Part shown: piece after piece, positions 7,298-52,660 of the stretch
How the letters are laid out: every line of letters starts with the position of its first letter
Numbering within the stretch: position 1 is the first letter of the stretch
Assembly: GCF_016901135.1 (NCBI RefSeq)
Contig: NZ_JAFEVL010000003.1
Coordinates: 310,001-374,000, forward strand
Length of the DNA stretch: 64,000 nt
Reading direction: 5' to 3'
From: Martinezella lusitana
GTDB lineage: Bacteria > Pseudomonadota > Alphaproteobacteria > Rhizobiales > Rhizobiaceae
Position numbers and translations under genes: made by a program
The notes under the pieces: model-generated
Told to the model about the DNA's origin: nothing
The model's input: only the letters and a program-made list of their open reading frames with translations
Databases searched by the model: none

Positions 7298-7362
7298 CTC
7301 TCACAGTGCGCTCCTCTAAGGTTCAGGCATGATGTGCTGGACAGCGCGAGAGAGGAAAAACA

Positions 7363-8463: not shown

Positions 8464-8485
8464 AGACAAAGCATACATCCGGTGA

Positions 8486-8510
8486 GCCCTCCGCCCCAGA
8501 GGCGGCGGGC
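8486..8510 (+). other. Intercistronic GC-rich hairpin
   Basis: GCCC-T-CCGCC at 8486-8495 pairs with GGCGG-C-GGGC at 8501-8510, with one internal mismatch and a five-base loop. No T run follows, so it is unlikely to be an efficient terminator. It may stabilise the upstream monooxygenase message or attenuate readthrough into the gene at 8608. Confidence 0.5.
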
Positions 8511-8607
8511 CTAACCCTCCTCACCCCGATATTCGGACCAGACTTCAGAGCATGGTGAAGGCCGGTGCCGGCTGCCGCTCATCTTTCAATCGGAAAGGCT
8601 TTTCCAG

Positions 8608-36035: not shown

Positions 36036-36869
36036 TTACAGTCCGTAGAACCGCTCACCGTTTGTCGCCCAGATCTTCTGCTGATCCGCCCCCGGCAATG
36101 TGCGGATCGCGTCCGCTACCGTCTCGATCCAGCGACTGTAGTCGGCGACCAAGTTGACGACAGGCCAATCGCTGCCGAACACCAATCGATCCGGCCCGAA
36201 AATATCGAGAACCGTTTCTATATAGGGCCTGACGCGTTCGGCGGTCCAATCCGGGCCATCCTCGGTCAGAATGCCGGAAATCTTGCAGTGAACGTGCCGG
36301 AGATCGCGGAAGTGCTCCATATCGCGACGCCACGCCGCCAGGCCGCCATTGGCAATTTCAGGCTTGGCCATATGGTCGACGATAACAGGCAAGTCGGGGT
36401 AGCGTTCAATGAAGCGCACCGTGTTGAGGATATGACGCGGTTTGATCAATGCGTCGAAGCGCAGCCCGAGATCGATGATGGCGCGAATGGCAGGGTCAAG
36501 TTCTGGTTTCAGTATCCAGTCGTCCTCGGGAAGATCCTGCAAATAGGGCCGGATGCTTTTGAGTTTCCTGAACCGAGCCCAGGCTTGAAGATCGGCGGCG
36601 GGGGTCGGTGCAAGCAGATCGATCCAGGCCACCACGCCGCGAACGAAGTCGTGGCCGTCGGCAAGGCCCATCAGATAGGCTGTCTCATGGACTGAATTGG
36701 CTGCGGACACCAGCACGACGCCCTCGACATCGTTCTTGGCCATCAGCGGCAGTGCGTCGCCGACGCTATAGTCGCGATAGAGGACCTCAAGCTCGGGCGT
36801 CATCCAGAGCGAATAATAGGGCTCCATGGCGAGCGTCCAGAGATGCATGTGGCAGTCGATGCGACGCAT
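36036..36869 (-). CDS. COG3618-type amidohydrolase, probable sugar lactonase
   Basis: From ATG 36869 (AGGAGG close upstream) the protein has 277 residues. It is a TIM-barrel metal hydrolase with the HxH motif in RRIDCHMHLW, VIVDHMAKPEI, HCKISGI and FGSDWPVVNL with the last metal aspartate. This set is that of the L-fuconolactonase/rhamnonolactonase-like amidohydrolases. Encoded after an SDR and across from an enolase-superfamily dehydratase, it probably opens a sugar lactone to its acid. It is the last gene of the leftward three-gene unit. The exact sugar is not determined. Confidence 0.82.
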   Translation of the reverse strand: MRRIDCHMHLWTLAMEPYYSLWMTPELEVLYRDYSVGDALPLMAKNDVEGVVLVSAANSVHETAYLMGLADGHDFVRGVVAWIDLLAPTPAADLQAWARFRKLKSIRPYLQDLPEDDWILKPELDPAIRAIIDLGLRFDALIKPRHILNTVRFIERYPDLPVIVDHMAKPEIANGGLAAWRRDMEHFRDLRHVHCKISGILTEDGPDWTAERVRPYIETVLDIFGPDRLVFGSDWPVVNLVADYSRWIETVADAIRTLPGADQQKIWATNGERFYGL

Positions 36870-36904: not shown

Positions 36905-37708
36905 TCAAAAAATCCTCAGGCCGGCGAGCAATCCACCATCCGCCGTGAACTGTGAACCGGTGCAGAAACCCGAGCGCGGGCTCGCCAGGAAAGCAGCGAG
37001 TTCGGCGATTTCCCAAGCCTCCCCAAGACGCTGAAGCGGAACCGGGCGGGCAAACACCTTGTACATGTCCTCAATCGACTTTCCTTCGCCATTGCCACGG
37101 GCAAAATGCTCTTGCATCGGCGTGATGATCGAGCCGGGGCAGATCGTATTGGCGCGGATCTTGTGCTTTGCCAGATCGATCGCAAGCGTGTGGGTGAAGG
37201 TGACGATTGCGCCTTTCGTGGACGCATAAGCGCAGACATTCGGCGTGTTCGACGTTGCCTGGACGGAGGCGACCGTGATGATCGAACCGCCGCCGCTTTC
37301 GATCATGTGAGGCACGCCAAAATGGCAGGTCAAATACATCGACTTGACGTTGACGGCAAAGGTCCGGTCCCACGTTGCCTCGTCGGTCTCGACAACATTG
37401 CCGAGGGGATGGATCGCGGCCGAGCACATGATGATGTCGAGGCTGCCGAACTCGGAGACGGTGCGGTCCACTGCAGAGCGAACGAAACCGCTATCGCTGC
37501 CATCGCCATGAATGCCGATCACCGAGCGCTTGCCGTTGTCGGACAGTTCAGCGGCAACGGTGAGTGTGTCCTCGGCATGACCGACGATGACGACCCGCGC
37601 GCCGCGGTCGGCGAGCAGTTCGGCTGAAGCACGACCAATGCCCGAGCTGCCTCCAAGGACAAAGGCGGTCTTGCCTTCGAATTCGCGGTCAATGGATGGT
37701 AGGGTCAT
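36905..37708 (-). CDS. Short-chain dehydrogenase/reductase
   Basis: From ATG 37708 (AAGGTGAC upstream) the protein has 267 residues. It has the NAD-binding GGSSGIGRASAELLA, the NNAG-equivalent MCSAAIHPLG, catalytic YASTKGA (YxxxK), and a C-terminal GFCTGSQFTADGGLLAGL. Classical SDRs of this type oxidise aldoses at C1 or keto-deoxy sugar acids at C4. Encoded between a binding-fold protein and a lactonase, it probably makes the lactone substrate. The usual NNAG is degenerate (CSAA), as in some family members. Confidence 0.84.
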   Translation of the reverse strand: MTLPSIDREFEGKTAFVLGGSSGIGRASAELLADRGARVVIVGHAEDTLTVAAELSDNGKRSVIGIHGDGSDSGFVRSAVDRTVSEFGSLDIIMCSAAIHPLGNVVETDEATWDRTFAVNVKSMYLTCHFGVPHMIESGGGSIITVASVQATSNTPNVCAYASTKGAIVTFTHTLAIDLAKHKIRANTICPGSIITPMQEHFARGNGEGKSIEDMYKVFARPVPLQRLGEAWEIAELAAFLASPRSGFCTGSQFTADGGLLAGLRIF

Positions 37709-37754: not shown

Positions 37755-38624
37755 TCACCGGATCGCCTGATGGCTGAAGTGTCTGACGCTTTCAACTGCC
37801 GATCTGTCGATCACAGCCGCTCCCGCATCCATTGAGGATGGCATCAATCCGTAGCGCCGATAAAGAGCCAGTTGCACGACAGGGTAAAAGCCCTGGACAT
37901 AGGGTTGCTGATCGATGCTGAAAGCGATGAAGCCTTCGGCGATGAGATCGACGATACCGGGCGACAAGTCAAAGCCGGCAACAAAGGGAGCAGCATCCTT
38001 AAGCACGCGCGCCGCAAGGCCGCATGCTTCGGTATCGCCCTGTCCCGTGCCGAAAAGCGCGCGGGCCGGAAATTGCGCCAGGGCCTCGGTGAGCACCATG
38101 GCTCCCCTTGCAGGATCTTGTCCGGTGGTGACGATTTTCCATTGAAGATCCAGGTCACGGAGAGTGGACTGGATACCGACCAGGCGCTGCTCGAGCGCCC
38201 AGACGCCATCGTCATGCAGCGTCGCGATGACGCGATCCCCGGATGTCAAGGCGGAGCGGGCGCGTCGGCCAAGCGTTTCGCCGGCCGCCCTTAGATCCTG
38301 CGCAACATAGCTCAAATTGCCGCTCGCGCCCCTGCCGGCGTCGATATTGAAGCCGACAACCGGTATCGATCGCGCCTTGGCGTCGGCGATGACCTCTGTA
38401 AACCGGTCCCTCTCGGTAATATTGAGGACGATGCCATCGACACCATCGGCAATGGCCTGGCGGGTCAGCCGCACGAGTTCCTCGCTGTCGACGCCACGCG
38501 TTCCGACGAGATCGACGTCGACCTCCATCGCCGCAGCCGCGTCGTTCATTCCCTTGCGGACCACATTGAAGATTTCCTCCCCGACGGCGATGGTGATGAA
38601 GCGAAACCTCAATCTCTTGATCAC
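37755..38624 (-). CDS. Ribose-type periplasmic-binding-fold protein without signal peptide
   Basis: The start is GTG 38624, with AGGAGG six bases upstream. The 289-residue protein follows the sugar-binding Peripla_BP_4 fold from its first residues (LRFRFITIAVGEEIFNVVRK, then QAIADGVDGIVLNITERDRF, and FSIDQQPYVQGFYPVVQLAL near the end). There is no hydrophobic signal segment and no DNA-binding domain, so it should stay in the cytoplasm. It is the first gene of a unit with an SDR and a lactonase. A cytoplasmic sugar sensor or carrier is possible, or a former transport protein that lost its signal. Its divergent promoter carries the proposed GntR operator. Confidence 0.78.
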   Translation of the reverse strand: MIKRLRFRFITIAVGEEIFNVVRKGMNDAAAAMEVDVDLVGTRGVDSEELVRLTRQAIADGVDGIVLNITERDRFTEVIADAKARSIPVVGFNIDAGRGASGNLSYVAQDLRAAGETLGRRARSALTSGDRVIATLHDDGVWALEQRLVGIQSTLRDLDLQWKIVTTGQDPARGAMVLTEALAQFPARALFGTGQGDTEACGLAARVLKDAAPFVAGFDLSPGIVDLIAEGFIAFSIDQQPYVQGFYPVVQLALYRRYGLMPSSMDAGAAVIDRSAVESVRHFSHQAIR

Positions 38625-38681
38625 AATCTTCCTCCTTGCACCGCGTCCGATTTCGATTGCATCGGCAGAATGCCGTTATAT

Positions 38682-38735
38682 TGGTCCAGCCACTGGACAA
38701 TTATTTGTTTAGATCCTGTCTTCACCGGCGTCAAC
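38682..38735 (-). promoter_or_regulatory. Leftward promoter with GntR-type operator copy 1
   Basis: On the minus strand TTGACG (38730-38735) and TAAACA (38707-38712) are 17 bases apart and could be -35 and -10 elements. TGGCTGGACCA follows at 38692-38682, within the larger inverted repeat TTGTCCAGTGGCTGGACCAA. The operator would sit at or just past the transcription start, as expected for repression. It serves the unit beginning at 38624. Confidence 0.55.
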
Positions 38736-38831
38736 GCGTTATCGCCTTTGGGAGGGAAGTTTCCAATTTCCGCTCAACACCAGCTTTTGCGAACCGAAGC
38801 GCAAGCTCCAGATCGTGGACGGCGGGAGCGA

Positions 38832-38877
38832 TTGACAATCTACTGTAGCGTGGACTAATGGTCTTGTGGCTGGACCA
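38832..38877 (+). promoter_or_regulatory. Rightward promoter with GntR-type operator copy 2
   Basis: TTGACA at 38832-38837 and ACTAAT at 38854-38859 (16-base spacing) form a good sigma-70-like promoter. TGGCTGGACCA follows at 38867-38877, inside the near-palindrome TGGTCTTGTGGCTGGACCA. The first gene downstream is the enolase-superfamily enzyme at 38964. Confidence 0.6.
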
Positions 38878-38963
38878 ATTTCAACGACACGTGCCTGACC
38901 CTCAGCCGGGCTGTCGGCGGTCAGCGGAAGCATCGTTCACAGTCTTCGAGCTATGGAATCGTT

Positions 38964-40079
38964 ATGAAAATCAAATCTATAGAGCCGTTCATCCTGCACG
39001 CTCCGATCAATCTGGGCTCCATCTCGGATTCAACCCATACCATCAGCCATTGGGGCATCGTCGGTGTAAAACTGGTTACGGAAGACGGCCTGGCGGGCTA
39101 CGGCTTTACCGGCACGCATGCTCACCTCGCCTCCGACAGACTGATCACCTCCTGCATTTCCGGGTGCTATGCACCCTTGCTTTTGGGCGAGGACGCCGCC
39201 GATGGTGACCGGCTTTGGCTGAAACTCGCGCGCTACCCGGCAATACAATGGGTTGGTCGTGCCGGCGTCACGCATATTGCTCTTGCGGCCATCGACATCG
39301 CGCTGTGGGACCTGCGCGCGAAGAAGGCTGGCCTGCCCCTATGGAAACTGCTCGGCGGCGCGACGGTGGACAAGCTCGAAGCTTACAACACCGATATCGG
39401 CTGGCTTTCGATGTCCAAGGACAAGCTGGTGGATGGATGCAAGCGCACGATCGAACATGATGGCTTTCGACGTCTCAAGATCAAGGTCGGACATGCCGAT
39501 CCGATGATCGACATCGACCGCTTCGAGGCGGTGCGCCACGCGGTCGGCCCCAACGTCACCATTGCGGTGGATGCCAATGGCAAGTGGGACTTGCCCACTT
39601 GCCAGCGCTTTTGCGCACGGGCGGAGGCGCTGGATGTCTTCTGGTTCGAAGAGCCCATGTGGTATGACGATATCAGGTCGCACGCGGCCCTTGCACAGTC
39701 GACCTCGATCCCGATTGCCCTGGGCGAGCAGCTTTATACAGCCGAAGCCTTCAGCAGCTTCATTGATGCCGCCGCCGTCGAATTTGTTCAGCCGGATGTG
39801 ACGCGGCTTGCCGGCATTACCGAATATATTCAGGTGGCGCACAACGCCCATTCGCACCGGCTGCCGGTCGTTGCCCATGTCGGCGACATGGGCCAGGTCC
39901 ACGTCCATCTTTCATACTGGCACCCGGCGACGTCGATGCTCGAATACATTCCCTGGATCAAGGACTGCTTCGTCGAGCCCATCCGCGTCGAGGGAGGATT
40001 CTATGTTCGCCCCGAAGCTCCAGGCGCCGGCTGCACGCTGACGGAGCAGGCGATAGCCGATTACAGCAAAGCCTGCTGA
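38964..40079 (+). CDS. Enolase-superfamily sugar acid dehydratase/racemase (mandelate racemase subgroup)
   Basis: The 371-residue protein has the mandelate-racemase-type sites: the KxK motif in [12 protein letters not shown], metal ligands Asp in IAVDANGKW, Glu in [10 protein letters not shown] and Glu in [10 protein letters not shown], and a His-Asp dyad from VAHVGDMG and QPDVTRLAG. These enzymes dehydrate aldonic acids to 2-keto-3-deoxy acids, or racemise or cycloisomerise related substrates, with Mg2+ in the cytoplasm. With the SDR and lactonase encoded opposite, a sugar acid dehydratase is the simplest role. The substrate cannot be assigned from motifs alone. Confidence 0.84.
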
Positions 40080-40277
40080 GCAAGCGATCCGGGCCGGCCA
40101 TCCCGCAGCGCGTCCACATCACGGAGCATGCGGCACGACCCGATTTCATGAAGGCGCGTATCCCGCCTTCAGCCGTCGTTTGAGGATAATGGAACTTGGT
40201 CAAACCGTTCGCCTACCTGGCACTCTCGACGCGACCGTCCTGTCGCTCGTCCAGTTATCGAACGAAAGGAGCGCGAC

Positions 40278-41138
40278 ATGACTAAACCACAGCATGAACC
40301 AGACCGTAGCGTCGATGCCATCGGAGCTTTGTCGAGGATTGGGCCGCAAACGGTGAAATCCGCTCTGGGACTTGCCGCGGCCGGCGAAATCTTCGATCTC
40401 GGCCTTCCGATCGATTCCACCATTCCGCACAATCCGGACTTCGTCCGCTTCTCGATGGCCATGACCCACACGCCGGAAGTGACCGGCGCAGCCTCCCCGT
40501 TCCAATATTGCCTGGAAGCAATTCATGGCCCGCTGCACATCAGCACGCATATCGATGCCTTCGTCCATATCCAGGACAAGGGCGAGATCTACGGCGGCCA
40601 TACCGCAGCATCTTCGCGCGATGACCGTGGCTGGAAGCGTCACGGGATCGAAACGGTTCCACCGATCGTCGGGCGTGGCATCTTGCTCGACATTCCCGCA
40701 TTGAAAGGCCTCGCACGATTGCCCGACCGCTACGAGGTGACGGTCGAGGATATACGCCAGGAACTCGACCGGACCGGGCTCGCCATCAGGAAGGGCGACA
40801 TCGTTTTGGTGCGGACGGGCAAGATTCAGGACTTTGGAGACGAGGCCGCGTTTCAAGCAGCTGAACCGGGGGTTGGACGCGACGCGGCGATTTGGCTCTA
40901 TGAAGCCGGCATGTCGGTATTATGCACCGATACGACCGGCACCGAGCCCCTGCCCTTCGCCGATCCAGCGAATACCACGCATGTCGCGATGCTGGTTCAT
41001 CGCGGTGTCCATCTGATCGAGAACGTCTTTCTCGAAGACCTGTCCGCAAGGGGAGTTTTTGAGGGCCTGTTCGTGGCGTTGCCGATCAAGATCACCGGCG
41101 CGACCGGCTCGTGGATCCGCCCGATCCTCATTCGGTAA
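40278..41138 (+). CDS. Cyclase-family metal-dependent hydrolase
   Basis: The 286-residue protein carries the cyclase/kynurenine-formamidase motif HISTHIDAFVHI (HxxTHxDxxxH) that binds a divalent metal, with GRGILLDIPALKGL before it and DIVLVRTGKIQDF after it. AAAGGAG lies upstream of the ATG. Members hydrolyse amides, lactones or ring systems; kynurenine formamidase and isatin hydrolase are examples. In this sugar acid locus it could be a second ring-opening or lactone hydrolase. It follows the enolase-type gene by about 200 bases and may share its promoter. Confidence 0.82.
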   Translation: MTKPQHEPDRSVDAIGALSRIGPQTVKSALGLAAAGEIFDLGLPIDSTIPHNPDFVRFSMAMTHTPEVTGAASPFQYCLEAIHGPLHISTHIDAFVHIQDKGEIYGGHTAASSRDDRGWKRHGIETVPPIVGRGILLDIPALKGLARLPDRYEVTVEDIRQELDRTGLAIRKGDIVLVRTGKIQDFGDEAAFQAAEPGVGRDAAIWLYEAGMSVLCTDTTGTEPLPFADPANTTHVAMLVHRGVHLIENVFLEDLSARGVFEGLFVALPIKITGATGSWIRPILIR

Positions 41139-41192
41139 CAGCGGCCTCGTGCTCGAAGGGCTGCTCTATCCGGCGAGTGATGAGGACCGGCC

Positions 41193-41240
41193 CTAACCGG
41201 TCCATCCTCCGTCGATGAACGTGCGCGTCGGCTTACTCAT
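41193..41240 (-). pseudogene. Possible SDR C-terminal remnant
   Basis: A 15-residue frame ends in KPTRTFIDGGWTG, resembling the DGGW-type C-terminus of short-chain dehydrogenases. No upstream SDR body is present. It may be the end of a deleted gene in the sugar locus, or chance. Confidence 0.3.
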
Positions 41241-41297
41241 GTGGGTCTCCCTGTCATTGACTTGATTTCACCATGTGCACGCGTCGAACGCCAGCGT

Positions 41298-41342
41298 TTG
41301 ACAAAGACAAGACGCGAACTTAAGAGTCAAATGGCTGGACCA
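41298..41342 (+). promoter_or_regulatory. Promoter with GntR-type operator copy 3
   Basis: TTGACA at 41298-41303 is followed after 17 bases by TAAGAG at 41321-41326, and then by TGGCTGGACCA at 41332-41342. The geometry matches the other two sites: the operator sits immediately past the -10 element. It serves the ribose-type ABC importer starting at about 41391. Confidence 0.6.
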
Positions 41343-41390
41343 CTGAACCATTAGACCAAAATGAAGGGCCTGGGAGGAAACCGGGAAGAC

Positions 41391-42392
41391 ATGACGGATA
41401 TGACGGATGTGAAGCATGACGGGGAAGGCCATCGATCTTGGCGACGGCTGAATTTCGACGAATTGGGAATCGTCTTGGCCCTGGCGCTGTTCGTGGTCAT
41501 CGGCGCATGCACGAACCCCTATTTCCTGACCTTCACCAACCTCGCCGGGGTTCTGCAGAACATCACCTTCCTCGGTTTTTTGTGTATCGGCGTGGGACTG
41601 ACCTTGATGGCCGGCGAGATTGATATCTCTGTCGGCTCGACATTCGGGCTCTGTGCGGTCGTGATGGCGTTGCTGGTGAAAAACGGATATCCGCTCGCCG
41701 CCGCCGTCGCGGCGACGTTGCTGGTCGGAGTTGCCTGCGGATTGATCAACGGCGCCGTGGCGCAAGCGATCAAGGTGCCGGCCGTTGTCGTCACGCTCGC
41801 CACACTTGGCATCTATCGCGCCATCGCCTTGGCACTTGCCAATGGCTCGCCGGTCGGTGGCCTGCCGGAGCTTCCGGTCTTCTTCGATTGGTTCGGCCAA
41901 GGCGCGGTGGCACAGATATCCTACATCACGATACTCTTCCTGATTGTCTCCATCATCAGCGAATTTGCCTTGCGATGGACGTCCTCCGGCTATCGCCTGC
42001 TCGCTATCGGCAGCAATCCGCGCGCCGCCTATCTGGTTGGCTTCAAGGTAGAGCGCACGCGCATTCTGGTGTTGACGTTTTCCGGACTGATGGCCGCCGT
42101 GTCGGGTATCTGTTCGGTCGCCTATCTTGATACGGCCGGACCGACGGCCGGAACGGGCTACGAGTTGAGCGTGCTTGCGGCGACCATCATCGGCGGCGTC
42201 AAGCTGACCGGTGGACGCGGATCGATCCTCGGCGTGCTTCTCGGCCTTTGCGTCATCGGCATCATCCAGAATCTTATCGTGTTGTGGGGTGTTTCGCCCA
42301 ATTGGACGCAGGGCGTAGCCGGCTTGGTCTTGATCGCCGCCATGACGCTTACCTGGGCCACCAACAGAAAAGACACTTCACGCAACGCCTGA
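41391..42392 (+). CDS. Ribose-type (RbsC-like) ABC permease
   Basis: The protein has about 333 residues; ATGs at 41361 and 41400 are alternatives. It is a multi-span permease with NPYFLTFTNLAGVLQNITFL, the family motif LMAGEIDISVGSTFGLCAVV, and AATIIGGVKLTGGRGSILGV near the C-terminus. It would form the membrane channel of a monosaccharide importer with the binding protein and ATPase encoded next. It is the first gene of the unit downstream of operator copy 3. Confidence 0.87.
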   Translation: MTDMTDVKHDGEGHRSWRRLNFDELGIVLALALFVVIGACTNPYFLTFTNLAGVLQNITFLGFLCIGVGLTLMAGEIDISVGSTFGLCAVVMALLVKNGYPLAAAVAATLLVGVACGLINGAVAQAIKVPAVVVTLATLGIYRAIALALANGSPVGGLPELPVFFDWFGQGAVAQISYITILFLIVSIISEFALRWTSSGYRLLAIGSNPRAAYLVGFKVERTRILVLTFSGLMAAVSGICSVAYLDTAGPTAGTGYELSVLAATIIGGVKLTGGRGSILGVLLGLCVIGIIQNLIVLWGVSPNWTQGVAGLVLIAAMTLTWATNRKDTSRNA

Positions 42393-42431
42393 GGAGAGAG
42401 CAGGCGGAAATCTCAAAGAGGGAGTAGAGAC

Positions 42432-43466
42432 ATGACCAATTCCAAAAATTCAGGGATGCTCGGCCGCCGGCAGTTCGGCAAGCTCGTCGGCCTGACGGCC
42501 GCCGCTGGCGCAGCCGGAGCGTTTGCCGGCGCCGGCACGGCGCATGCGGCTGACGACTGGAAAGGCTGGGTGCAATCCTATCACAAGCAGCCGATCAAGA
42601 TGGCCGTATCCTGCGCCGGGACCACCAACCCCTATTTTGCGCCGACAAAGGCAGGCGCCGAGGACGCTGCGGCACAGCTTGGCATCGACATGCTTTGGAC
42701 CGGCGTGCCTGATGGCAACACCGTCAACCAGATCGCCCAGTTTCAGCAGCTTGCCAATACCGGCTATTCGGTCATCGTCGTGATCTCCTTCGAGCCGGAC
42801 GCCTGGGTCGCACCCATCAAGAAAGCCATGCAACAGGGCGTGCTGGTGCTGACGGCCAATAACGACGCGCCCAGCAGCAGCCGCGAGCTCTATTTCGGAC
42901 AGGATCTTGTCGGCGCAGCAGTCGTGCAGGGGCAATTGCTGGCCAAGCTGGCCGGAGGCAAGGGTAAGGTCGCGATGACCAACTGCGCTCCAGGCTCGCT
43001 CGGCCTGGATCAACGCATCCAGGGTGCGCGGCAGGGCGTCAAGCAAGGTGGCCTGGACGATGTCGGCGTCTACAACACCAATCCGGCTGACATGGCGAGC
43101 GAATTGGGCACGATGCAGGACATTTTGCGCGCCCATCCCGATCTGGCCGCCGTCATGCCGCTCTGCGGCCCCGACACGGCCGCTGCAGGGCTCGTGCGTA
43201 AAAATCAAGGGCACAAACTGCCAATCGTCGGCACCGACCTGTTGTACCAGACCTTGGAACTTATCCGCGACGGCCACATCGACGCGACAGTTGGTCAGCA
43301 ACCCTATCTGCAGGGATACCTGCCCATCATGTACGGCTATCAGCGCACCGTGCTCGGGGCTCCCAAACTCACTCTACCGGGTGGCAACTACTACGTGGCC
43401 AACGAAATCGTCACCAAGGACAATGTCGCCGCGTATCTCGAGCGCGAGGCCCGGTTCCGCGGATGA
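42432..43466 (+). CDS. Sugar ABC transporter substrate-binding protein, Tat signal
   Basis: The 344-residue precursor has a twin-arginine signal (GRRQFGKLVGLTAAAGAAG, arginines at 12-13) ending near AHAAD. The mature domain is a ribose/galactose-type binding protein: IKMAVSCAGTTNPYFAPTKA, VNQIAQFQQLANTGYSVIVV, and GQQPYLQGYLPIMYGYQR. It resembles the signal-less binding-fold protein encoded at 37755 (compare QQPYVQGF with QQPYLQGY), suggesting duplication. It delivers the sugar or sugar acid to the permease encoded at 41391. Confidence 0.87.
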   Translation: MTNSKNSGMLGRRQFGKLVGLTAAAGAAGAFAGAGTAHAADDWKGWVQSYHKQPIKMAVSCAGTTNPYFAPTKAGAEDAAAQLGIDMLWTGVPDGNTVNQIAQFQQLANTGYSVIVVISFEPDAWVAPIKKAMQQGVLVLTANNDAPSSSRELYFGQDLVGAAVVQGQLLAKLAGGKGKVAMTNCAPGSLGLDQRIQGARQGVKQGGLDDVGVYNTNPADMASELGTMQDILRAHPDLAAVMPLCGPDTAAAGLVRKNQGHKLPIVGTDLLYQTLELIRDGHIDATVGQQPYLQGYLPIMYGYQRTVLGAPKLTLPGGNYYVANEIVTKDNVAAYLEREARFRG

Positions 43467-44956
43467 TCGGCGCTGACTCACCCCTTCTCGATGCGAGGAG
43501 CATTTCCAAGCGCTTCGCCGCCTTTCAGGCGCTCGACGACGTTTCGTTGAACGTACAGGCCGGCGAAGTTCATGGGCTGCTGGGCGCAAACGGCGCGGGC
43601 AAGTCGACATTGATCGGTGTGCTATCCGGGGCCCTACCCCCGGACAGCGGCAGTCTGACCGTCGCTGGTCTTCCCGTAGCGCTCGGCTCGCTGACAGCCT
43701 CCCGGCGTGCAGGTCTGATGGTTGTGCATCAGGAACTGATGCTGTTTCCGGACCGCTCCGTCGAGGAAAATATCTACGCAAGCGTTCTGCCGAAGGCGCC
43801 TTTCGCCTGGATCTCGGCGCGTCGGCGGCGTCGACAGGTGGATGAGGTCTTACAGCGGCTGAGCGCTCGGGTCGACCTGCGCGCCAGGGTCGGTGACCTG
43901 CCCTTGTCTCATCAACAACTGGTGGAGATCGGGCGGGCGCTTTGCGCAGGCGGGCGGGTCCTTATATTGGATGAGCCAACGTCTTCGCTATCCCAGCCGG
44001 AAGCTGCGGGGCTTTTCGAGGCCATTCGCGCGATCGTCGCCAATGATGCGGCCGTGATATTTGTTTCGCACCGGCTGGACGAAGTCCTTGCGCTGACCGA
44101 CCGGATCACCGTGCTGAGAGATGGCCGTCTCGTCGGAAGCTGGCACACCCGTGACACCGACATCAGCTTCATTACGCACGCCATGGTCGGGCAACTCGCG
44201 GAGGAAAAGCCACGACCGTCACGGCGATCCGAAGAGCGAACGGCGCTGGCATTTTCAGGCCCCCTGCCCGGCTTCGCAAAGATCGATTTCTCACTAAGCC
44301 CCGGAGAGGTCGTCGGCCTGGCCGGATTGGAGGGATCGGGTGTATCGCGAGCGCTGGAGGCCTTCGGCGGTATCATCCAAACCTCGGCTCGCATTGTCGT
44401 CGATGGCCGGCAGGTCACGTTCAAGAACCCGCTGCAGGCGATTGCGAGGGGTGTCGTCTACATGCCGCCGGATCGAAAGCTCGATGGTCTGTGGCTGGAC
44501 AATAGCGTTGCAAACAACATTGCAGCCGCTGTCGTTGCCAGGATGCAGCCATTCAAGCTGCTCAGCAGATTGCGCCTGGAGCGGATCGCTGTCGAACGCT
44601 TGCAGCAGGTTGGAGTTCGCGGAAGCGCTCTTAGAAATGCTGTCGCCAGCCTCTCCGGAGGCAACCAGCAGCGCGTTCTGCTTGGGCGGTGCCTCGAGGC
44701 AAGACCTCAGGTGCTGTTGCTCAGCGACTTCACCCGTGGCGTCGATGTCAGCGCAAAGGCGGCAATTCATGGCTTGATCCGCTCTCTTGCCGACAAGGGT
44801 CTGGCGATTTGCGTCACGTCGTCCGATCTCGAAGAACTCTTGGGTATTGCCGACCGAATCGTCTGCATGCGCAATGGGATGATCGTCGCCGATCGGGCCA
44901 GCATCGAATTCGACAAGCGCAGCCTGCTGGAGGTGGTTTCCCGCGAGGCGGCGTGA
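43463..44956 (+). CDS. Ribose-type (RbsA-like) double ABC ATPase
   Basis: The 497-residue protein contains two ATPase domains. The first has Walker A GANGAGKSTL at about residue 38 and Walker B VLILDEPTSSLS, with signature LPLSHQQLVEIGRAL. The second has the degenerate P-loop LAGLEGSGVSRALEAFGG usual in this family, and an intact LSGGNQQRVLLGRCL. It powers uptake with the permease and binding protein encoded upstream, overlapping the latter gene by four bases. Confidence 0.87.
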   Translation: MIGADSPLLDARSISKRFAAFQALDDVSLNVQAGEVHGLLGANGAGKSTLIGVLSGALPPDSGSLTVAGLPVALGSLTASRRAGLMVVHQELMLFPDRSVEENIYASVLPKAPFAWISARRRRRQVDEVLQRLSARVDLRARVGDLPLSHQQLVEIGRALCAGGRVLILDEPTSSLSQPEAAGLFEAIRAIVANDAAVIFVSHRLDEVLALTDRITVLRDGRLVGSWHTRDTDISFITHAMVGQLAEEKPRPSRRSEERTALAFSGPLPGFAKIDFSLSPGEVVGLAGLEGSGVSRALEAFGGIIQTSARIVVDGRQVTFKNPLQAIARGVVYMPPDRKLDGLWLDNSVANNIAAAVVARMQPFKLLSRLRLERIAVERLQQVGVRGSALRNAVASLSGGNQQRVLLGRCLEARPQVLLLSDFTRGVDVSAKAAIHGLIRSLADKGLAICVTSSDLEELLGIADRIVCMRNGMIVADRASIEFDKRSLLEVVSREAA

Positions 44957-45111
44957 GGCGTGGAGCGCCAAGCATCGGCCGCGGCCGACAATGAGACTGG
45001 CCGGCGAAACGGGCTTGGCTTGTTCTCGGGATTTGCTGTTATTACGATGTGAGCATATCAGCAAGACTCGCGCGTCCATCCGCGTGGGATCACAAGCTCT
45101 CGGGAGAGACG

Positions 45112-45882
45112 ATGAAACGCACCGCCAAGCTGAGCGCCACCGACGCGGATCGGCCGACCGACACTCGGCTCCCCCAAATCGAATCCGTGCGGCTATACCG
45201 GCGGATCGCCGATCTGCTGACGACGCGCATCGATCAGGGCCTGTTTCCTGTCGGCAGTTTCCTGCCGGCCGAACGGGAGCTTGCCGAGCAATTGGGCGTC
45301 AGCAGAACCACGGTCCGCGAAGCATTGATCGCGCTGGAGATGGTCGGCCGCGTCTCGATCCGCCATGGCCACGGCGTTCAAGTGCTGGACGCATCGCAGC
45401 CGGGCTATAGCCCTCAGGTGTTGGAGGATGAAGAGCCGATCGTCGATATTGGGCCTATCCAGGTGATGGAAGCCCGTCGCTGGGTTGAACCGAAGACCGC
45501 GGAGATGGCCGCCATCAATCATACCGAAGAGCACCTCGAGCGCATGCGACAGGCGATGCAACTTCAGTCCCAGGCGCCCACCGCCAGGGCCGTTCAGTAT
45601 CGCGATGGCGATCGAAAATTTCACATCGAAATTGCCCGTGCAAGCGGCAATCCAGCCTATCAGGTCCTGGTCTCGTCGCTTTGGGAATTCAGGGCAAAAC
45701 CACTGTTTCGCCGGTTCGAAGAATTGCTCGTCGGGCCTGACCGACCGGTCAAGACAGCCAGGGAGCATCAGGCGATCTATGACGCCATCGCGAGGCGCGA
45801 TGCCAAAGCGGCAAGCCGGCTGATGAGGGTTCATCTCGACGCCGTGTTGCGAGCCTTCATCGAAGGCGCGGACCCTTCGTAG
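45112..45882 (+). CDS. GntR/FadR-type transcriptional regulator of the sugar locus
   Basis: From ATG 45112 (GGGAGAG upstream) the protein has 256 residues. The N-terminal winged helix is clear (YRRIADLLTTRIDQGLFPVG, AERELAEQLGVSRTTVREAL), followed by RHGHGVQVLD, and the C-terminal FCD helical ligand domain contains EARRWVEPKTAEMAAINH and KTAREHQAIYDAIARRDAKA. FadR-type members are usually repressors relieved by the pathway metabolite. It closes the rightward sugar unit, and the three TGGCTGGACCA sites are its most likely operators. No such site precedes the gene itself. Confidence 0.86.
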   Translation: MKRTAKLSATDADRPTDTRLPQIESVRLYRRIADLLTTRIDQGLFPVGSFLPAERELAEQLGVSRTTVREALIALEMVGRVSIRHGHGVQVLDASQPGYSPQVLEDEEPIVDIGPIQVMEARRWVEPKTAEMAAINHTEEHLERMRQAMQLQSQAPTARAVQYRDGDRKFHIEIARASGNPAYQVLVSSLWEFRAKPLFRRFEELLVGPDRPVKTAREHQAIYDAIARRDAKAASRLMRVHLDAVLRAFIEGADPS

Positions 45883-45919: not shown

Positions 45920-47428
45920 TCATGCCGGAGATTCAGCGGCATGAATGGCCGCGATGATGGCGACGCTTGCAACGTCATAGCGTCGGTCGTTGAGATGCTC
46001 ATGGACGATCTTGAAGTCATGCATGATAAGAATGCGGTCCGCGAGGCCGATCATTTCGGGCATGTCGCTGGAGATCAGCAGGACCGACATACCATTGTCT
46101 GCCAAGCCGTTGAGAAGCTCGTGGATATAAGCTTTCGCTTTGATATCGATCCCGACCGTCGGCTCGTCGACGATGAGGAGGTCGACATCGGCGGCTAGCC
46201 ATTTGGCAAGCGAAACCTTCTGCTGATTGCCGCCCGACAGATTGCCGACCAGTTGCTCGAGATTTGGCGTGCGGATTTCGAGGCGAGCGGCGAGCGGCGC
46301 GGCGACCTGCCGTTCGGCGCGTGCAGTCAGAAAGCCCAGGCGACCGGCGATCCGATCCCAAACCGTCATCGCCACATTCGTTCGAATTGAATGACCGAGC
46401 ACGACGCCTTCATGCTTGCGGTCTTCGCTGACATAGCCGAGCCGGAACCGTTTGATCGCCTCTTCGACGGAGCGGATTTTGACCGATTTTCCATCGATCA
46501 GCACTTCGCCTGCCGTCAGTCGTTCCTTGCCCAAAAGGGCGCGGGCAAATTCGGTTCTGCCGGCGCCGACGAGACCGTAAATGCCGACGATCTCCCCGCG
46601 CTGGATCTTGAAGCTGATCCGCTCGTGGCCGGCAGCCGTGGAGACGTTACGCACCTCGAGTTTCGGCGTTCCGGCCTGTGGACGACCGGTGCGCGCAATT
46701 ACCGGACGCTCCGCGCGCCCGATCATGGCTTCGATCAGCCTCTGTCTGGTCATGGTCGCCATCGGGGCGCCGGCAAGAGTTGTTTCGCCGTCACGCAGCA
46801 CGGTTATGCGGTCGCAGAGCGCCAGCACCTCTTCAAGCTTATGGCTCACGAACAGGATCGCGGTGCCGCGGTCGCGCAATTGTCGTACCAAACGGAACAG
46901 CGTCTCGCTTTCGGCATCGGTGATCGACGCCGTCGGTTCATCGAGGAGCAGGACTTTCGCCTCGTGGCTCAGCGCCTTGGCAATTTCCACCATCTGCATC
47001 TGCGCCACGCTGAGCCGGCGCACTTCGATGGCTGGATCGACGTCCAGCCCGACCATCTTCAGATGCTTGCGCGCCTCCGCATATGCGGTCTTGACGTCGA
47101 TCAGACCGTTCTTGACCGGCATGCCTTCAAGAAGGATGTTATCGGCGACGGAGAACCGCGGAATAAGGTTGCGCTCCTGATGAACGGCAGAAATTCCAAG
47201 GGCGATGGCATCACGTGGGGATGACAGGAAAAGCGGTTTGCCATCGAGCGCGACCGTCCCTTCATCCGGTCGGTAGACGCCGGTGATGATCTTGATCAGC
47301 GTCGACTTGCCGGCGCCGTTTTCACCCATGAGGGCATGCACCTCGCCGGGCACGAGCGAAAGCGAGGCGCCCTTCAATGCGCGGACGCCCGGAAACGACT
47401 TTTCGACATGATCCAGGATAAGCGGCAT
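45920..47428 (-). CDS. Ribose-type double ABC ATPase (second importer)
   Basis: From ATG 47428 the protein has 502 residues with two ATPase domains. The first has Walker A GENGAGKSTLIKI and Walker B VLLLDEPTASIT. The second has the degenerate GLVGAGRTEFARALLG, LSGGNQQKVSLAKWL and LLIVDEPTVGID. It is the last gene of the leftward importer operon: the permease stop and this start overlap. The neighbouring esterase and GntR regulator hint at a sugar or glycoside substrate different from that of the first importer. Confidence 0.87.
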   Translation of the reverse strand: MPLILDHVEKSFPGVRALKGASLSLVPGEVHALMGENGAGKSTLIKIITGVYRPDEGTVALDGKPLFLSSPRDAIALGISAVHQERNLIPRFSVADNILLEGMPVKNGLIDVKTAYAEARKHLKMVGLDVDPAIEVRRLSVAQMQMVEIAKALSHEAKVLLLDEPTASITDAESETLFRLVRQLRDRGTAILFVSHKLEEVLALCDRITVLRDGETTLAGAPMATMTRQRLIEAMIGRAERPVIARTGRPQAGTPKLEVRNVSTAAGHERISFKIQRGEIVGIYGLVGAGRTEFARALLGKERLTAGEVLIDGKSVKIRSVEEAIKRFRLGYVSEDRKHEGVVLGHSIRTNVAMTVWDRIAGRLGFLTARAERQVAAPLAARLEIRTPNLEQLVGNLSGGNQQKVSLAKWLAADVDLLIVDEPTVGIDIKAKAYIHELLNGLADNGMSVLLISSDMPEMIGLADRILIMHDFKIVHEHLNDRRYDVASVAIIAAIHAAESPA

Positions 47429-47429
47429 G

Positions 47430-48386
47430 TCAGTCTTCTCCCACCCGAACTGCCCGGTAGCGATTGATCCAGACCGCAATGAGGATCAAAGCCCCGAGCA
47501 GGAACGTCACCCAATAGGGATCGACGGCAAGCAGCACCATCGCATTCTGGATGAGACCGACCAGGAGCACGGCAATCACCGTGCCGGTGATCGAGATCGC
47601 GCCGCCCGCGAGACTCGCGCCGCCAATGATCGGTGCGGCGAAAGAAATGACCAACCAGTCCGCGCCGATCGTCGGCTGCGCCGACCCGAGTTGCGCCACG
47701 GCGAGCACGCCCGCCGCCGCAGCCAGGAGGCCGGAGAGCGTATGGGCGAACATGATCGCCCGACTTACAGAAATTCCCGACAATTCGGCGGCGTGGCTAT
47801 TGCCTCCGACTGCGAGCAGATAGCGGCCTTGTACGGTCCTTGCAAAAAAGATCACCAGCAGCACCGTCACAATGATCGGAACGATGAGCAGCAGCGGGAA
47901 AAGGCCCAGCCGCCCATTGCCGAATGCGACGAAATCCGCTGGCAAATTGTAGAAGGGAACCGCTTGAGTGATGCCGAGATTGATACCGGTAAAAGCGGAG
48001 GCTGTCGCAAGCGTCACAATGAAACCATTGATGCCGGTGCGGACTGTCAGCCAGCCGTTCAGGCAACCTGCGGCGGCTCCGACGCCAAGTGCTGCCAAAA
48101 CCGCGGGCACGGTTGGCCAACCCCAGGCTTCCATGAGGCCGCCAGTGACGATCGCGATAAGCCCGCCGAGCGCCCCGACGGAAAGATTGAGCTGCCCCAC
48201 TCCCAACATCACCATTTGGCTGAAGGCGACGAGAAGCGACACGCAGATGCTGCGCAGCAGGACGAACCAATTAAACTCCGTCAGAAAAGCCGGCGCGCTT
48301 AACGAAAGCGCTGCGATACCAATGAGAACGGCTGCAAAAATGCCGGACCACTGGGTTCGGACAGCCAGGGACAGGAACCGATTCAT
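47430..48386 (-). CDS. RbsC-like ABC permease (second importer, second permease)
   Basis: The 318-residue multi-span protein contains SQMVMLGVGQLNLSVGALGG, the position equivalent to the GEIDLSVG motif of the family, and FAAPIIGGASLAGGAISITG near the end. Its start overlaps the end of the other permease gene by four bases. Two different permeases in one importer suggest a heterodimeric channel, as in AraH- or autoinducer-2-type systems. Confidence 0.86.
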   Translation of the reverse strand: MNRFLSLAVRTQWSGIFAAVLIGIAALSLSAPAFLTEFNWFVLLRSICVSLLVAFSQMVMLGVGQLNLSVGALGGLIAIVTGGLMEAWGWPTVPAVLAALGVGAAAGCLNGWLTVRTGINGFIVTLATASAFTGINLGITQAVPFYNLPADFVAFGNGRLGLFPLLLIVPIIVTVLLVIFFARTVQGRYLLAVGGNSHAAELSGISVSRAIMFAHTLSGLLAAAAGVLAVAQLGSAQPTIGADWLVISFAAPIIGGASLAGGAISITGTVIAVLLVGLIQNAMVLLAVDPYWVTFLLGALILIAVWINRYRAVRVGED

Positions 48387-49396
48387 GCGTGCCTCGTCTG
48401 TTGGCGCAGGGCAAGGGCTGCACGGTAGCGTTCAAGGAGAATGGCGCCGAGCAGGAAGATGCCCAGGAACAGCTGCAACCAGAAGCCCCCGATCTGCAGA
48501 ACGAGCAGGCCACTGCGGATCGTCGCGACAAGAAGCGCGCCAAGAACGGTGCCAACCACCGACACCATGCCCCCGGAAAGAGCAGTGCCACCGATAACGG
48601 GTGCCAGGAACGACGGAAGCAACCAGTCGTCGCCGGCAACGGACGGCATCGCCGCAGCCAGGCGCGCGGTCAGCATCAAGCCCGCGCAGGCTGCCAGGAC
48701 GCCTGAGAGGACGTGTACGCGAATGATGACACGGCTGACCGCAATTCCCGACATTTCGGCAGCGCGCGCACTGGCGCCGACGGCCAGGATCTGCCGACCG
48801 AAGGTCGTGTGGGTAAAGAGAAAATAGAGGAGCGCGCCGATGGCGAGCGCGACAAATACAAGCGCGGGGACAGGCCCGAAACTGGTTCGCCCAAAAAGGC
48901 CAAGTGCGGGGGGCAGGCCATTGAGCGGTACGCCCTTGGTCAAAATCAGCATGCCGCCTGAAAACAGGCTTGCGCTTGCCAGCGTTACCACAAAGCTGTT
49001 CACGCCGGTGCGCGCGATTGCAAAGCCGTTGAGCCAACCAAGAGCACCACCGGCCGCCAGCGTCAAGATGATCGCGATGGGCAAGGGCAGTCCAATGACC
49101 TGCAGCAAATATCCGCTCACCATCACGGTGCAGACACCGATTGCGCCCACGGACAAGTTCATCCCCCCGGTCGCGAGAACCACCATTTGGGCGAAACCGA
49201 CAACAACGTCGACCGCAACGGAGCGGAAGAGCGAATTCAGGTTGAACCGCGACAAGAACCCGGCGGAAAGGCTGGAGAAAAAGATCCACATCACAATGAG
49301 GATCAGGAGAAGGCCGAGCTGGGTCGATCCACGCATGAGAATGCTGAGGGGACGCGCGCTCTTTGGTTGGCCCGTGGCGACTTCTGGCGTGGACAT
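48383..49396 (-). CDS. RbsC-like ABC permease (second importer, first permease)
   Basis: The 337-residue multi-span protein has VGFAQMVVLATGGMNLSVGA and FLAPVIGGTALSGGMVSVVG, matching the other permease of this operon in layout. The N-terminus is a cytoplasmic stretch of about 25 residues. It follows the binding-protein gene after a hairpin at 49435-49464. It should pair with the permease encoded downstream. Confidence 0.86.
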   Translation of the reverse strand: MSTPEVATGQPKSARPLSILMRGSTQLGLLLILIVMWIFFSSLSAGFLSRFNLNSLFRSVAVDVVVGFAQMVVLATGGMNLSVGAIGVCTVMVSGYLLQVIGLPLPIAIILTLAAGGALGWLNGFAIARTGVNSFVVTLASASLFSGGMLILTKGVPLNGLPPALGLFGRTSFGPVPALVFVALAIGALLYFLFTHTTFGRQILAVGASARAAEMSGIAVSRVIIRVHVLSGVLAACAGLMLTARLAAAMPSVAGDDWLLPSFLAPVIGGTALSGGMVSVVGTVLGALLVATIRSGLLVLQIGGFWLQLFLGIFLLGAILLERYRAALALRQQTRHA

Positions 49397-49434
49397 CCTG
49401 CTTCTGTCTCTGTTTTGATCCGGGGTCGAATAAG

Positions 49435-49464
49435 CGTGCGATCCCGCGGCAGGAATCGCACGCC
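49435..49464 (-). other. Intercistronic hairpin after the binding-protein gene
   Basis: GCGTGCGAT at 49435-49443 pairs exactly with ATCGCACGC at 49456-49464. It lies between the binding-protein gene and the permease genes, with no T run. Such hairpins protect the upstream message and help keep binding-protein levels above those of the membrane subunits. Confidence 0.65.
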
Positions 49465-49472
49465 TCTTTCAG

Positions 49473-50507
49473 TCATTTGCAGGAGAGATACGTGTCCTTG
49501 AAGGACGCCTGCATCTTGTGGCTCAGCGCCTTCAGGTCATCCTTGTAGGTATCGACATTGGCAGACGAGACGAAAACGGTGCCCGAATCGATGAAATGCG
49601 CAGTCTGCGGCGTCTTGATCCACGGAGCGTCCGGTTTGGCTGCGCATCCGCTGGCAAGCAAGTCGAGAGCATAGGTGCCGATATAGGCTTGGCCATAGGG
49701 GTTCTGGCCAACCGTCCCTGACACGAAACCATCGCGAATCCCGTCCAACACGATTTTGTCGTCGTCGATACCGACCATCTTGATCCGCTTGTCTCCGAGG
49801 TTTCGCAGCGCCTTTGCGGTGACGACGGATGAGATGTAGGCCGTTGTGATGATGCCGCCGATTTGATCCTTCTTGGAGGCAAGGAGCGCATTGACCTTCT
49901 GGTCGCCCTTCTCCTGGTCATCGGTATCGCCGACGGTCTGCAACAGCGTCACCGCGCCGTTCGTTTCGGCAACGGCCTTTTCAACCGCTTGCTCACGCAG
50001 CGTCGTGTTCGGATCGACAAGAAGACCGGCAAGATGAACGATGGCACCCTTGCCGCCCATGGCCTGAATGAGCGATTTCGTGCCGACATAGGCAGCCTGA
50101 TAGACATCGGTCGAGAAGCAGAAAGCCGTGTCTGTCGGATCCTGGGCGCAGCCGGCGATTGCTATCGCCGGAATGTTGTTGCTCTTGAACTCGGAGATCG
50201 TCGAATTGATGCCGACCGGATCGCCGGGGAAGAAGCCGAAAGCATTGATACCCTGCGCGGCAAGGCTTTCCAGAAGTTCGGTCTGCGCCTGCAATTTCCA
50301 CTCGGACGGAACCTTATACTCCGCCGAACCGATGCCGAAGTCCTTGACGGCGTCCTTCTCGGCCTGTTCCCAGGCGCCGAAATAAGGATGCGGACCGCCC
50401 GGTACCAAGGCGATCTTGTTGCTTGACGCAAAACCTGCCGCCGGCGCAAGCGCGACAGAACAGGCGAGGCCGACGGCGAAGACGCCGCGGACGTTGCGGA
50501 TACTCAT
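49473..50507 (-). CDS. Sugar-type ABC substrate-binding protein (second importer)
   Basis: From ATG 50507 (GGGAGGAAAT upstream) the precursor has 344 residues. The signal peptide contains GVFAVGLACSVALAPAAGFA, and the mature domain starts NKIALVPGGPHPYFGAW. Binding-fold features include LESLAAQGINAFGFFPGDPV, DQIGGIITTAYISSVVTAKA and VGQNPYGQAYIGTYALDLLA. It is the first gene of the leftward importer operon, whose promoter should lie in 50508-50670 opposite the esterase gene. The ligand is unknown. Confidence 0.86.
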   Translation of the reverse strand: MSIRNVRGVFAVGLACSVALAPAAGFASSNKIALVPGGPHPYFGAWEQAEKDAVKDFGIGSAEYKVPSEWKLQAQTELLESLAAQGINAFGFFPGDPVGINSTISEFKSNNIPAIAIAGCAQDPTDTAFCFSTDVYQAAYVGTKSLIQAMGGKGAIVHLAGLLVDPNTTLREQAVEKAVAETNGAVTLLQTVGDTDDQEKGDQKVNALLASKKDQIGGIITTAYISSVVTAKALRNLGDKRIKMVGIDDDKIVLDGIRDGFVSGTVGQNPYGQAYIGTYALDLLASGCAAKPDAPWIKTPQTAHFIDSGTVFVSSANVDTYKDDLKALSHKMQASFKDTYLSCK

Positions 50508-50670
50508 GAAATTTCCTCCCGTATAGGCCGGCTGCATTCCTCTAATACAGCGCGCCATGGCTATCGGTAGCATAATGGTATAATGCATGCAATGTTCATT
50601 CATTGACTTTTTGCGGCTCACGCTTTACCAGAACCACTCGGGGTGGCGATGGGCCTATTGGGAGGAACCT

Positions 50671-51628: not shown

Positions 51629-52660
51629 ATGAGCGTGACCAGACCGACGGCAAAGGACGCCTCGTCCGCAGGTGGCCGCGGTGAACCTGCCTATCTGGCG
51701 ATCCATGCCGTTCTTCGCGACCACATTCAACGTAACGTGCTCCGCGCCGGACTGGTTCTGGGAGAGGCCAGCGTGGCGCGCGCCTTCAACGTCAGCCGCG
51801 TGCCCGCGCGCGTTGCTTTGACGAGATTGCTTCGGGAAGGCCTGATCAAGCCGCTGGAAGGCAGGGGATTCATCGTGCCCGGAGGCGACCCTTTGCGCAT
51901 CGAGCTGGCCGAGGGCGGTCTCATCCTGTCAGCGGAGGCGGCGGTGCGCCCGATCAACCGCCGTGAGCAAATCTATCCCGAGGTCGAACACGCCGTGGCG
52001 ACCTGCCTCGCCTATGGCCGCTTTCTTCTGAATGAAACGGCGCTTGCCCAGCACTATAATGTTAGCCGAACCGTTGCGCATGAAGTGCTGACCCAGCTGC
52101 AACGGGCTGGAGTCGTGGAGCAGGACAGCAACAGTCGCTGGTATGCCGGGCCATTGTCCGCAGCCGAATTCAAATATCACTACGAGATGCGCATTTTTCT
52201 GGAGCCGCAGGCCCTGCGGCAGGCGGCACCATACCTAGAGCGCCAGGAGCTGCGTCGAAAGCTGGGTCGGATCCGGTCGGCCTCAAAAGGGGCAATTCGC
52301 CCTATCGAACTGGAGGAACTCGAGACTGATCTCCACATCCGGACCCTGGAATTTTGCCCGAACACGATCCTGTTGAACGCGCTGCGCCGCAGCCAACGCG
52401 TCTTGATCGCGACGCACTCGACGTTCGCAGACTATCGCAACCCACAGGACGTTGCGCTGATGATATCGGAGCATATTCAGATCTATGAAGCACTCTGTGT
52501 GGAAGATGTCGAGCTGGCGGTAGCGATACTGGCGACGCATTTGTCGCGTTCTCTGGAGGTCAACCTGGGCATGCTGCGCCGCCTGTCACCTCTGCCGAAA
52601 GACCTTTGCCCTGCTTATCTCATCCCGGTTGCGGCGACGCGGGACCGTGGCCCGACATGA
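51629..52660 (+). CDS. GntR-family regulator with two winged-helix domains and FCD
   Basis: The 343-residue protein is longer than usual. The first GntR winged helix spans about residues 20-85 (IHAVLRDHIQRNVLRAGLVL, then ASVARAFNVSRVPARVALTR). A second helix-turn-helix occupies about 110-160 (NETALAQHYNVSRTVAHEVL). The rest is an FCD-like helical domain with EMRIFLEPQALRQAAPYLER and EHIQIYEALCVEDVELAVAI. Typical members have one winged helix and about 240 residues. It probably regulates the esterase and the divergent second importer. Confidence 0.8.
   Translation: MSVTRPTAKDASSAGGRGEPAYLAIHAVLRDHIQRNVLRAGLVLGEASVARAFNVSRVPARVALTRLLREGLIKPLEGRGFIVPGGDPLRIELAEGGLILSAEAAVRPINRREQIYPEVEHAVATCLAYGRFLLNETALAQHYNVSRTVAHEVLTQLQRAGVVEQDSNSRWYAGPLSAAEFKYHYEMRIFLEPQALRQAAPYLERQELRRKLGRIRSASKGAIRPIELEELETDLHIRTLEFCPNTILLNALRRSQRVLIATHSTFADYRNPQDVALMISEHIQIYEALCVEDVELAVAILATHLSRSLEVNLGMLRRLSPLPKDLCPAYLIPVAATRDRGPT

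Follow-up and report, generated by a model that had tools for sequence, protein, structure and literature searches.

A probable GntR regulon with three operator-like boxes at a sugar-acid locus of Martinezella lusitana

The stretch of Martinezella lusitana DNA analysed here (64 kb, referred to as the window) contains a sugar-acid locus with genes on both strands. On the minus strand lie the genes for SBP1, a Peripla_BP_4 protein (37755..38624, by family match), for an SDR oxidoreductase (36905..37708, by family and NCBIfam search) and for an Amidohydro_2 protein (36036..36869, with an assumed ATG start), the best NCBIfam match of which is L-fucono-1,5-lactonase, at 190 bits and below the cut-off of 400. 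SBP1 has no evident signal peptide, as judged by eye from its N-terminus and the in-frame sequence upstream. The plus strand encodes an enolase-superfamily protein of the mandelate racemase type (38964..40079; family, NCBIfam and PDB matches), followed by a PF04199 'cyclase' family protein (40278..41138), a sugar ABC permease (41391..42392) and a sugar ABC substrate-binding protein, SBP2 (42432..43466), with an RR leader that looks Tat-like by eye, these three being assigned by family match, and by a sugar ABC ATPase (43463..44956; family and NCBIfam search). The enolase-superfamily protein is probably a sugar-acid dehydratase: its best NCBIfam model is L-talarate/galactarate dehydratase (253.7 bits, below the cut-off of 500) and its PDB match is 3tj4/4h19 (E 3.7e-181), and the L-fuconate dehydratase model is absent among its 17 NCBIfam matches.

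The gene at 45112..45882 (plus strand, ATG start) encodes a GntR/FadR-type regulator of 256 aa, as the first-pass annotation had proposed. The N-terminal winged helix-turn-helix domain PF00392 (70.4 bits, cut-off 27) and the C-terminal FCD domain PF07729 (95.6 bits, cut-off 24.3) together give it the domain composition of the FadR subfamily. The three top NCBIfam models are ExuR, which is the best (133.6 bits, cut-off 396), NanR (121.1, cut-off 260) and UxuR (116.6, cut-off 442), all of them below their cut-offs, as are LldR (88.9, cut-off 311) and FadR (61.4, cut-off 249.2); NanR is also the best PDB match. A further ORF, at 51629-52660, looks GntR-like by eye.

Three exact copies of the word TGGCTGGACCA occur in the window, at the positions and on the strands that the first-pass annotation had given: box 1 at 38682-38692 (minus strand), the proposed operator of the SBP1-SDR-amidohydrolase unit; box 2 at 38867-38877 (plus strand), the proposed operator of the enolase-cyclase unit; and box 3 at 41332-41342 (plus strand), for which the ABC transporter unit, possibly with gntR included, is the proposed target. 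The window holds no further exact copy, the expected mean is 0.05, and none of 100 shuffles reached three copies. When two mismatches were allowed, 15 words were found in the window against 16.6 expected, and because there is no excess at this level the signal resides in the exact word. The whole 7.43-Mb genome contains five exact copies, three of them inside one 2.7-kb stretch of the window, compared with four copies of the reversed control word; thus, the word is not enriched genome-wide, and neither is the degenerate form TGGYYNRACCA (100 genomic matches versus 125 for its reversed control). The non-random part is the cluster of three copies within 2.7 kb, all of them intergenic. Abundance of the box elsewhere, which would have counted against a regulon, was not found, as only two copies lie outside the locus. 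One of these (C1:18305, L093:8306) is located between two plus-strand ORFs, which end at 8014 and start at 8384, and is overlapped, among ORFs of at least 80 aa, only by an 84-aa minus-strand ORF; the other (C43:411063, L094:8064) lies 45 bases 5' of an ORF starting at 8109. The latter ORF appears LysR-like by eye. In the window, no box immediately precedes gntR, and the second ABC cluster (45920-50515) contains no TGG[TC]NNN[AG]CCA word.

Close relatives of the regulator (54-70% identity) were found at eight loci of other genomes, and box-like promoter words are present in all eight, in agreement with the expected conservation of the box together with the regulator; the word has at most one mismatch to TGGCTGGACCA in seven of them, and L009 has it only with two mismatches. 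It should be noted that L090 and L091 belong to one genome and that the relatives share descent. The commonest form among the relatives is TGGTTGGACCA. A box precedes SBP1 in L006, L013 and L091 too, and the enolase gene is preceded by the exact word in L006 and by variant words in L007, L009, L012 and L092. In other families, boxes thus placed recur at corresponding promoter positions within flanking sequence that has diverged. Around box 1, 19 consecutive bases are unchanged in L006, which bears out the earlier remark that this copy sits within a larger repeat. The gntR gene itself is directly preceded by a box in L090 and at the second gntR of L007. In L090, the regulator is 66% identical, and the remaining matches to the 13 query proteins of the window are limited to two distant ABC ATPases (27% and 33%). 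An alpha-L-fucosidase gene (ATG at 7816 taken as the start) takes the place of the catabolic genes found in the window, two box-like words lie between it and gntR, and in L090 alone does a fucosidase gene adjoin the regulator. The box is absent from the 4-kb locus (C75) of the source genome's own fucosidase gene. A tree places the ten box-linked regulators in one group with a support of 100/100. Controls were 75 enolase loci in which the stretch examined (about 10 kb on each flank, shorter where a contig ended) contains no close regulator; in every one, the 300 bp upstream of the enolase gene were free of the word.

Three matrices from which the window and L006 sites had been left out ranked the boxes 1, 2 and 4, then 1, 2 and 6, and 1, 2 and 3 in the window, a test that is not independent because the relatives' sites had been picked for their likeness to the box. 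Box 3 was the top-scoring window position with all three matrices. Box 2 was the weakest, ranking 4, 6 and 3 of about 64,000 positions with scores of 12.2, 9.5 and 13.2, the second of these from a matrix trained with the L092 site one base off (9200 for 9199); with the third matrix, its score was equalled or beaten at 19 of 1,498,802 control positions. The site at 53353, third with the first matrix, was dropped, as it lies inside an ORF (53051-54178) that is ABC-binding-protein-like in appearance.

Each box follows a -35-like motif at a characteristic distance: box 1 begins 42 nt downstream of the start of TTGACG (38729..38734, minus strand), box 2 begins 35 nt downstream of TTGACA (38832..38837, plus strand), and box 3 begins 34 nt downstream of TTGACA (41298..41303, plus strand); the spacing at box 1 (42-43 nt) is also found in L006, L013 and L091. 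The first-pass annotation had placed each box 5-15 bases past a plausible sigma-70 -10 element. The distances hold (5, 5-6 and 13 bases), but the hexamers picked by eye at a spacing of 17-18 nt (TAAGAG, CTAATG/TAATGG and TAAACA) are all weak, and a consensus scan of 38500-39000 and 41130-41420 detected no sigma-70-type promoters. Among the 19 sites of the window and its relatives, TTGAC is found 33-35 or 42-43 nt before the site in 13, compared with 59 of 7524 shifted positions (0.8%), the offsets having been picked after the sites had been seen. The motif is absent at these distances from L007:12014, L007:13662, L009:644, L090:7856, L090:8189 and L092:11369; L007:12014, L007:13662, L090:8189 and L092:11369 had been included for their resemblance to the box. 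Because TTGAC precedes 13 of the 19 sites at set distances, the box appears to lie near the transcription start, which is a repressor-like placement.

From the observed set of boxes, their conservation, their promoter position and their linkage to the regulator, we infer with considerable confidence that the FadR-subfamily regulator encoded at 45112 has its operators in the boxes and would repress three units, within their presumed operon limits, until relieved by a sugar acid. A GntR dimer would read the half-sites TGGY/TGGT and ACCA across a 3-base centre and, because the boxes begin 34-42 bases after the start of TTGAC, would cover or adjoin the transcription start. Occupancy of box 1 would block RNA polymerase at the catabolic unit (SBP1-SDR-lactonase-like), occupancy of box 2 at the dehydratase unit (enolase-cyclase) and occupancy of box 3 at the ABC uptake unit, and binding of a sugar acid of the pathway to the FCD domain would release GntR from the DNA. 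In the window, gntR may be part of the box-3 transcript and would therefore be under indirect autoregulation. Looping between boxes 1 and 2 is not favoured, because their distances of 185 bp in the window and 99 bp in L006 share no common helical phase. The earlier reading of the locus as a probable GntR regulon, in which binding was and is predicted from sequence, thus appears to be essentially right. It is a tentative and somewhat doubtful extension that the new regulon governs a hitherto undescribed way of oxidising an L-fucose-like sugar, in which a dehydratase other than the classical L-fuconate dehydratase takes part and a cytoplasmic SBP1 serves the pathway or its sensing.

The regulator might also activate transcription from the boxes, or act there in both ways, as GntR1/2 of C. 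glutamicum, members of the FadR family, are ascribed an activator function at ptsG (PMC2230225, excerpt); however, a box that follows TTGAC and coincides with the expected start or lies shortly beyond it suits blocking, and we regard an activating role as improbable. There is a similarly small chance that the boxes are operators of another regulator, for example, the product of the GntR-like ORF at 51629 or a distant protein, with the 45112 gene as a bystander. The binding partner is predicted, which leaves room for such a protein, but the box tracks the 45112 family (8/8 loci with it versus 0/75 enolase loci whose examined stretch lacks it), only the 45112-type regulator is shared with L090 at close identity, and the word of the relatives conforms to the FadR-subfamily consensus discussed below, as does the window word with one mismatch. 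It is very unlikely indeed that the copies have clustered by chance, belong to a mobile repeat or mark a hairpin in a transcript (GTCCAGCCACTGGAC, 38684-38698): the hairpin was listed on the plus strand by a terminator-like scan and the reversed control word is nearly as frequent in the genome, but only copy 1 of the three window copies forms such a hairpin, and the boxes recur at equivalent promoter places between diverged flanks.

The proposed regulon would be a new one, with a switch of an ordinary, already known bacterial on/off type. Among the publications listed in literature searches, none describes it, as judged by titles and abstract beginnings. Relatives of the regulator were found in at least 1 of 151 genomes of the family (E 1e-40) and, at 1e-45, in at least 3 of 397 genomes of the order and at least 1 of 385 of the class, the source genome being included each time; these counts are lower bounds because the first-look candidates scored per listed genome numbered no more than 17, 6 and 6, respectively. 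At 1e-60, the G535 and G199 families each yielded only the centre genome itself (1/28 and 1/5). A plasmid search retrieved 21 records with the regulator, all below 60% identity (the best 20 of 21 at 40.0-42.6%), and seven with the enolase. For a sugar-acid locus of patchy distribution, the analysis provides a proposed operator, regulator and set of targets that can be put to the test.

Several known systems resemble the proposed regulon. Loci for L-fucose oxidation at which FucR sites have been predicted (PMC5507952, excerpt) share with it a dehydratase for an oxidised sugar, which in the window is a probable one, and predicted co-regulation of the locus; they differ in that the lactonase-like protein of the window is below its family cut-off and that enzymes of the later pathway steps were not recognised in the window, where no name search was part of the comparison; the excerpt gives neither the family of FucR nor its motif. 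ExuR, UxuR and NanR provide the best models for the regulator, which is far below their cut-offs and belongs to another locus. The likeness to the FadR subfamily extends from the domains to the operator, as TGGTTGGACCA fully fits the subfamily consensus TNGTNNNACNA (PMC2230225, excerpt) and also the core of the PdhR box AATTGGTnnnACCAATT (PMC7660256, excerpt). The window word fits the consensus with one mismatch, a C at position 4, and one to two mismatches have been accepted for GntR1/2 sites (PMC2230225, excerpt); the target genes of the window regulator, and presumably its effector, are different. The box would be better written as TGGYTGGACCA, that is, as FadR-type half-sites TGGT-N3-ACCA, from which the window copies deviate at one position. 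DgoR of E. coli, which acts in D-galactonate use, is likewise a FadR-type sugar-acid repressor; it responds to D-galactonate and binds inverted repeats that overlap its promoter, IR1 containing TTGTAGTACAA, but its half-sites are TTGT/ACAA, two close repeats lie at one promoter, and it controls another operon (PMC12288454, excerpt). The rhizobial GntR cousins (34-39% identity) are encoded beside the same enolase family as the window regulator, and a word of FadR type, T[TG]GTCT[TG]ACCA, precedes gntR in 23 of 28 loci with a best match in this identity range. Their word has a different centre, CT[TG], and a half-site that is TTGT in 20 and TGGT in 3 of the 23 loci, and the recognition helix is mostly VSRP..REALIVLE with a GSG wing, in contrast to VSRT.VREA.IALE with a GHG or GRG wing in the box-linked group. 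Two related FadR-type groups that differ in operators and recognition residues should be useful for decoding GntR specificity.

The 11-mer TGGCTGGACCA is present in three exact copies at 38682-38692 (minus strand), 38867-38877 (plus) and 41332-41342 (plus), the places and strands claimed in the first-pass annotation, compared with a mean of 0.05 in shuffled windows (none of 100 shuffles contained three). The genome of 7,434,033 bases contains five copies, three of them in the window, and four of the reversed control word; when two mismatches were allowed, no excess of similar words was found in the window. No nameable sugar genes lie near the two copies outside the window (L093:8306 and L094:8064, both in loci of the same genome). 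The latter, on contig C43, is located 45 bases ahead of an open reading frame outside the locus that is LysR-like by eye.

According to family searches, the minus strand carries SBP1 (Peripla_BP_4; 37755-38624), followed downstream by genes for an SDR and an Amidohydro_2 protein, and the plus strand encodes, in this order, an enolase-superfamily protein, a PF04199 protein, an ABC permease, a binding protein, an ATPase and a GntR regulator with an FCD domain (45112-45882). The first two boxes are placed ahead of the divergent SBP1 and enolase units, and the third lies upstream of the permease gene. The enolase matches PDB 3tj4/4h19 at 3.7e-181, which we take to be Agrobacterium tumefaciens structures, one with ribonohydroxamate bound. 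SBP1 has a periplasmic-binding fold, but by eye no signal peptide is evident in it or in its counterparts in loci L006, L013 and L091 from other genomes, and therefore it may have a cytoplasmic role. A second sugar ABC transporter cluster (45920-50515, minus strand), with relatives in L006 and L013, adjoins gntR; it contains no box of its own.

The interpretation as a probable GntR regulon was upheld by comparison with other genomes. Among the best 80 of 204 loci from an enolase scan of genome contigs, five (L006, L007, L009, L012 and L013) encode the regulator at 55-70% identity, and whole-genome searches added L090 and L091 (both from genome G535) and L092 (genome G199). Box-like words are kept in promoter regions of all eight loci with a close regulator, whereas the 75 other enolase loci, classed only by the stretch around the enolase, have no match with up to one mismatch in the 300 bp upstream of the enolase gene. 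At that threshold, the eight regulator loci (129 kb) contain 15 matches, 12 at named promoter places, one intergenic in L090 (6377) and two within ATPase genes, and the 75 others (1.5 Mb) contain 32, or 0.43 per 20 kb; the L009 promoter sites require two mismatches.

Searched with 13 proteins of the window, L090 (19 kb) gave the regulator at 66% identity and, beyond it, just two remote ABC ATPase hits. At 6446-9075 its gntR relative is divergent to an alpha-L-fucosidase gene (PF01120, 9.4e-73), with two box-like words between them if the fucosidase starts at ATG 7816. The box tracks the regulator rather than the enzymes. The catabolic set of that genome lies at L091, where a single box separates gntR from SBP1-enolase-SDR-amidohydrolase-permease-SBP2-ATPase in collinear order, an arrangement that joins most of the window's three units into one gene set.

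Matrices built without the window and L006 sites ranked the window boxes 1, 2 and 4 among about 64,000 positions (8 sites), 1, 2 and 6 (10 sites, one of them misplaced by a single base) and 1, 2 and 3 (13 sites), the box at 38867-38877 being the weakest in each; its score on the 13-site matrix was matched or beaten at 19 of 1,498,802 control positions. Withholding the other loci one by one gave ranks 1 to 4. With all 19 sites, which score 15.7 to 24.7 on the matrix built from them, no control position reached at least 18 and three reached at least 16. As the training sites were chosen by likeness to the box, the held-out test is supportive, not independent.

At offsets set after inspection of the sites, TTGAC precedes the box in 13 of 19 cases, compared with 59 of 7524 positions when the sites are shifted within these regions; the other six sites have no TTGAC at those offsets. 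Start-to-box distances are 33-35 nt for the enolase, permease and L007 cyclase units and 42-43 nt for SBP1 units. Between the window and L006, 19 consecutive bases are unchanged at the first box and 16 at the second, in a surrounding alignment that is otherwise rich in gaps and changes; the third box has one change.

The words, their conservation, their position and their linkage to the regulator are established. A regulator dimer would bind the boxes and repress by blocking transcription start, and a sugar acid would release it. By its sequence, the C-terminal domain contains D...H, EH and H residues of the kind typical of metal-binding FCD domains. The fucosidase of L090 and a lactonase-like protein (190 bits, family cut-off 400) suggest L-fucose-like chemistry, but against this, the best family of the enolase is L-talarate/galactarate dehydratase (253.7, cut-off 500), and no box lies in the 4-kb locus of the fucosidase gene that the window's genome itself carries (contig C75).

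In a tree of 40 regulator sequences (midpoint-rooted for drawing only), the ten box-linked members form one group with support of 100/100. Rhizobial cousins, represented by 28 loci (among L017-L080) with a best regulator match at 34-39% identity, many of them close kin, carry T[TG]GTCT[TG]ACCA upstream of gntR in 23 loci, a FadR-type word unlike the box of the window's regulator group. Their recognition helix also differs, being mostly VSRP..REALIVLE rather than VSRT.VREA.IALE, as does the wing, GSG instead of GHG (GRG in L013). The word of the window regulator's relatives, TGGTTGGACCA, has the form TGGT-N3-ACCA, from which the window copies deviate at a single position (TGGC). Genome-wide, the degenerate TGGYYNRACCA shows no enrichment (100 versus 125 reversed). 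The FadR-subfamily operator consensus is TNGTNNNACNA (PMC2230225), the PdhR box is AATTGGTnnnACCAATT (PMC7660256), and DgoR, with D-galactonate as effector, represses via two inverted repeats that overlap its promoter (PMC12288454). The three boxes and the GntR gene very probably form a new regulon of a well-known kind.
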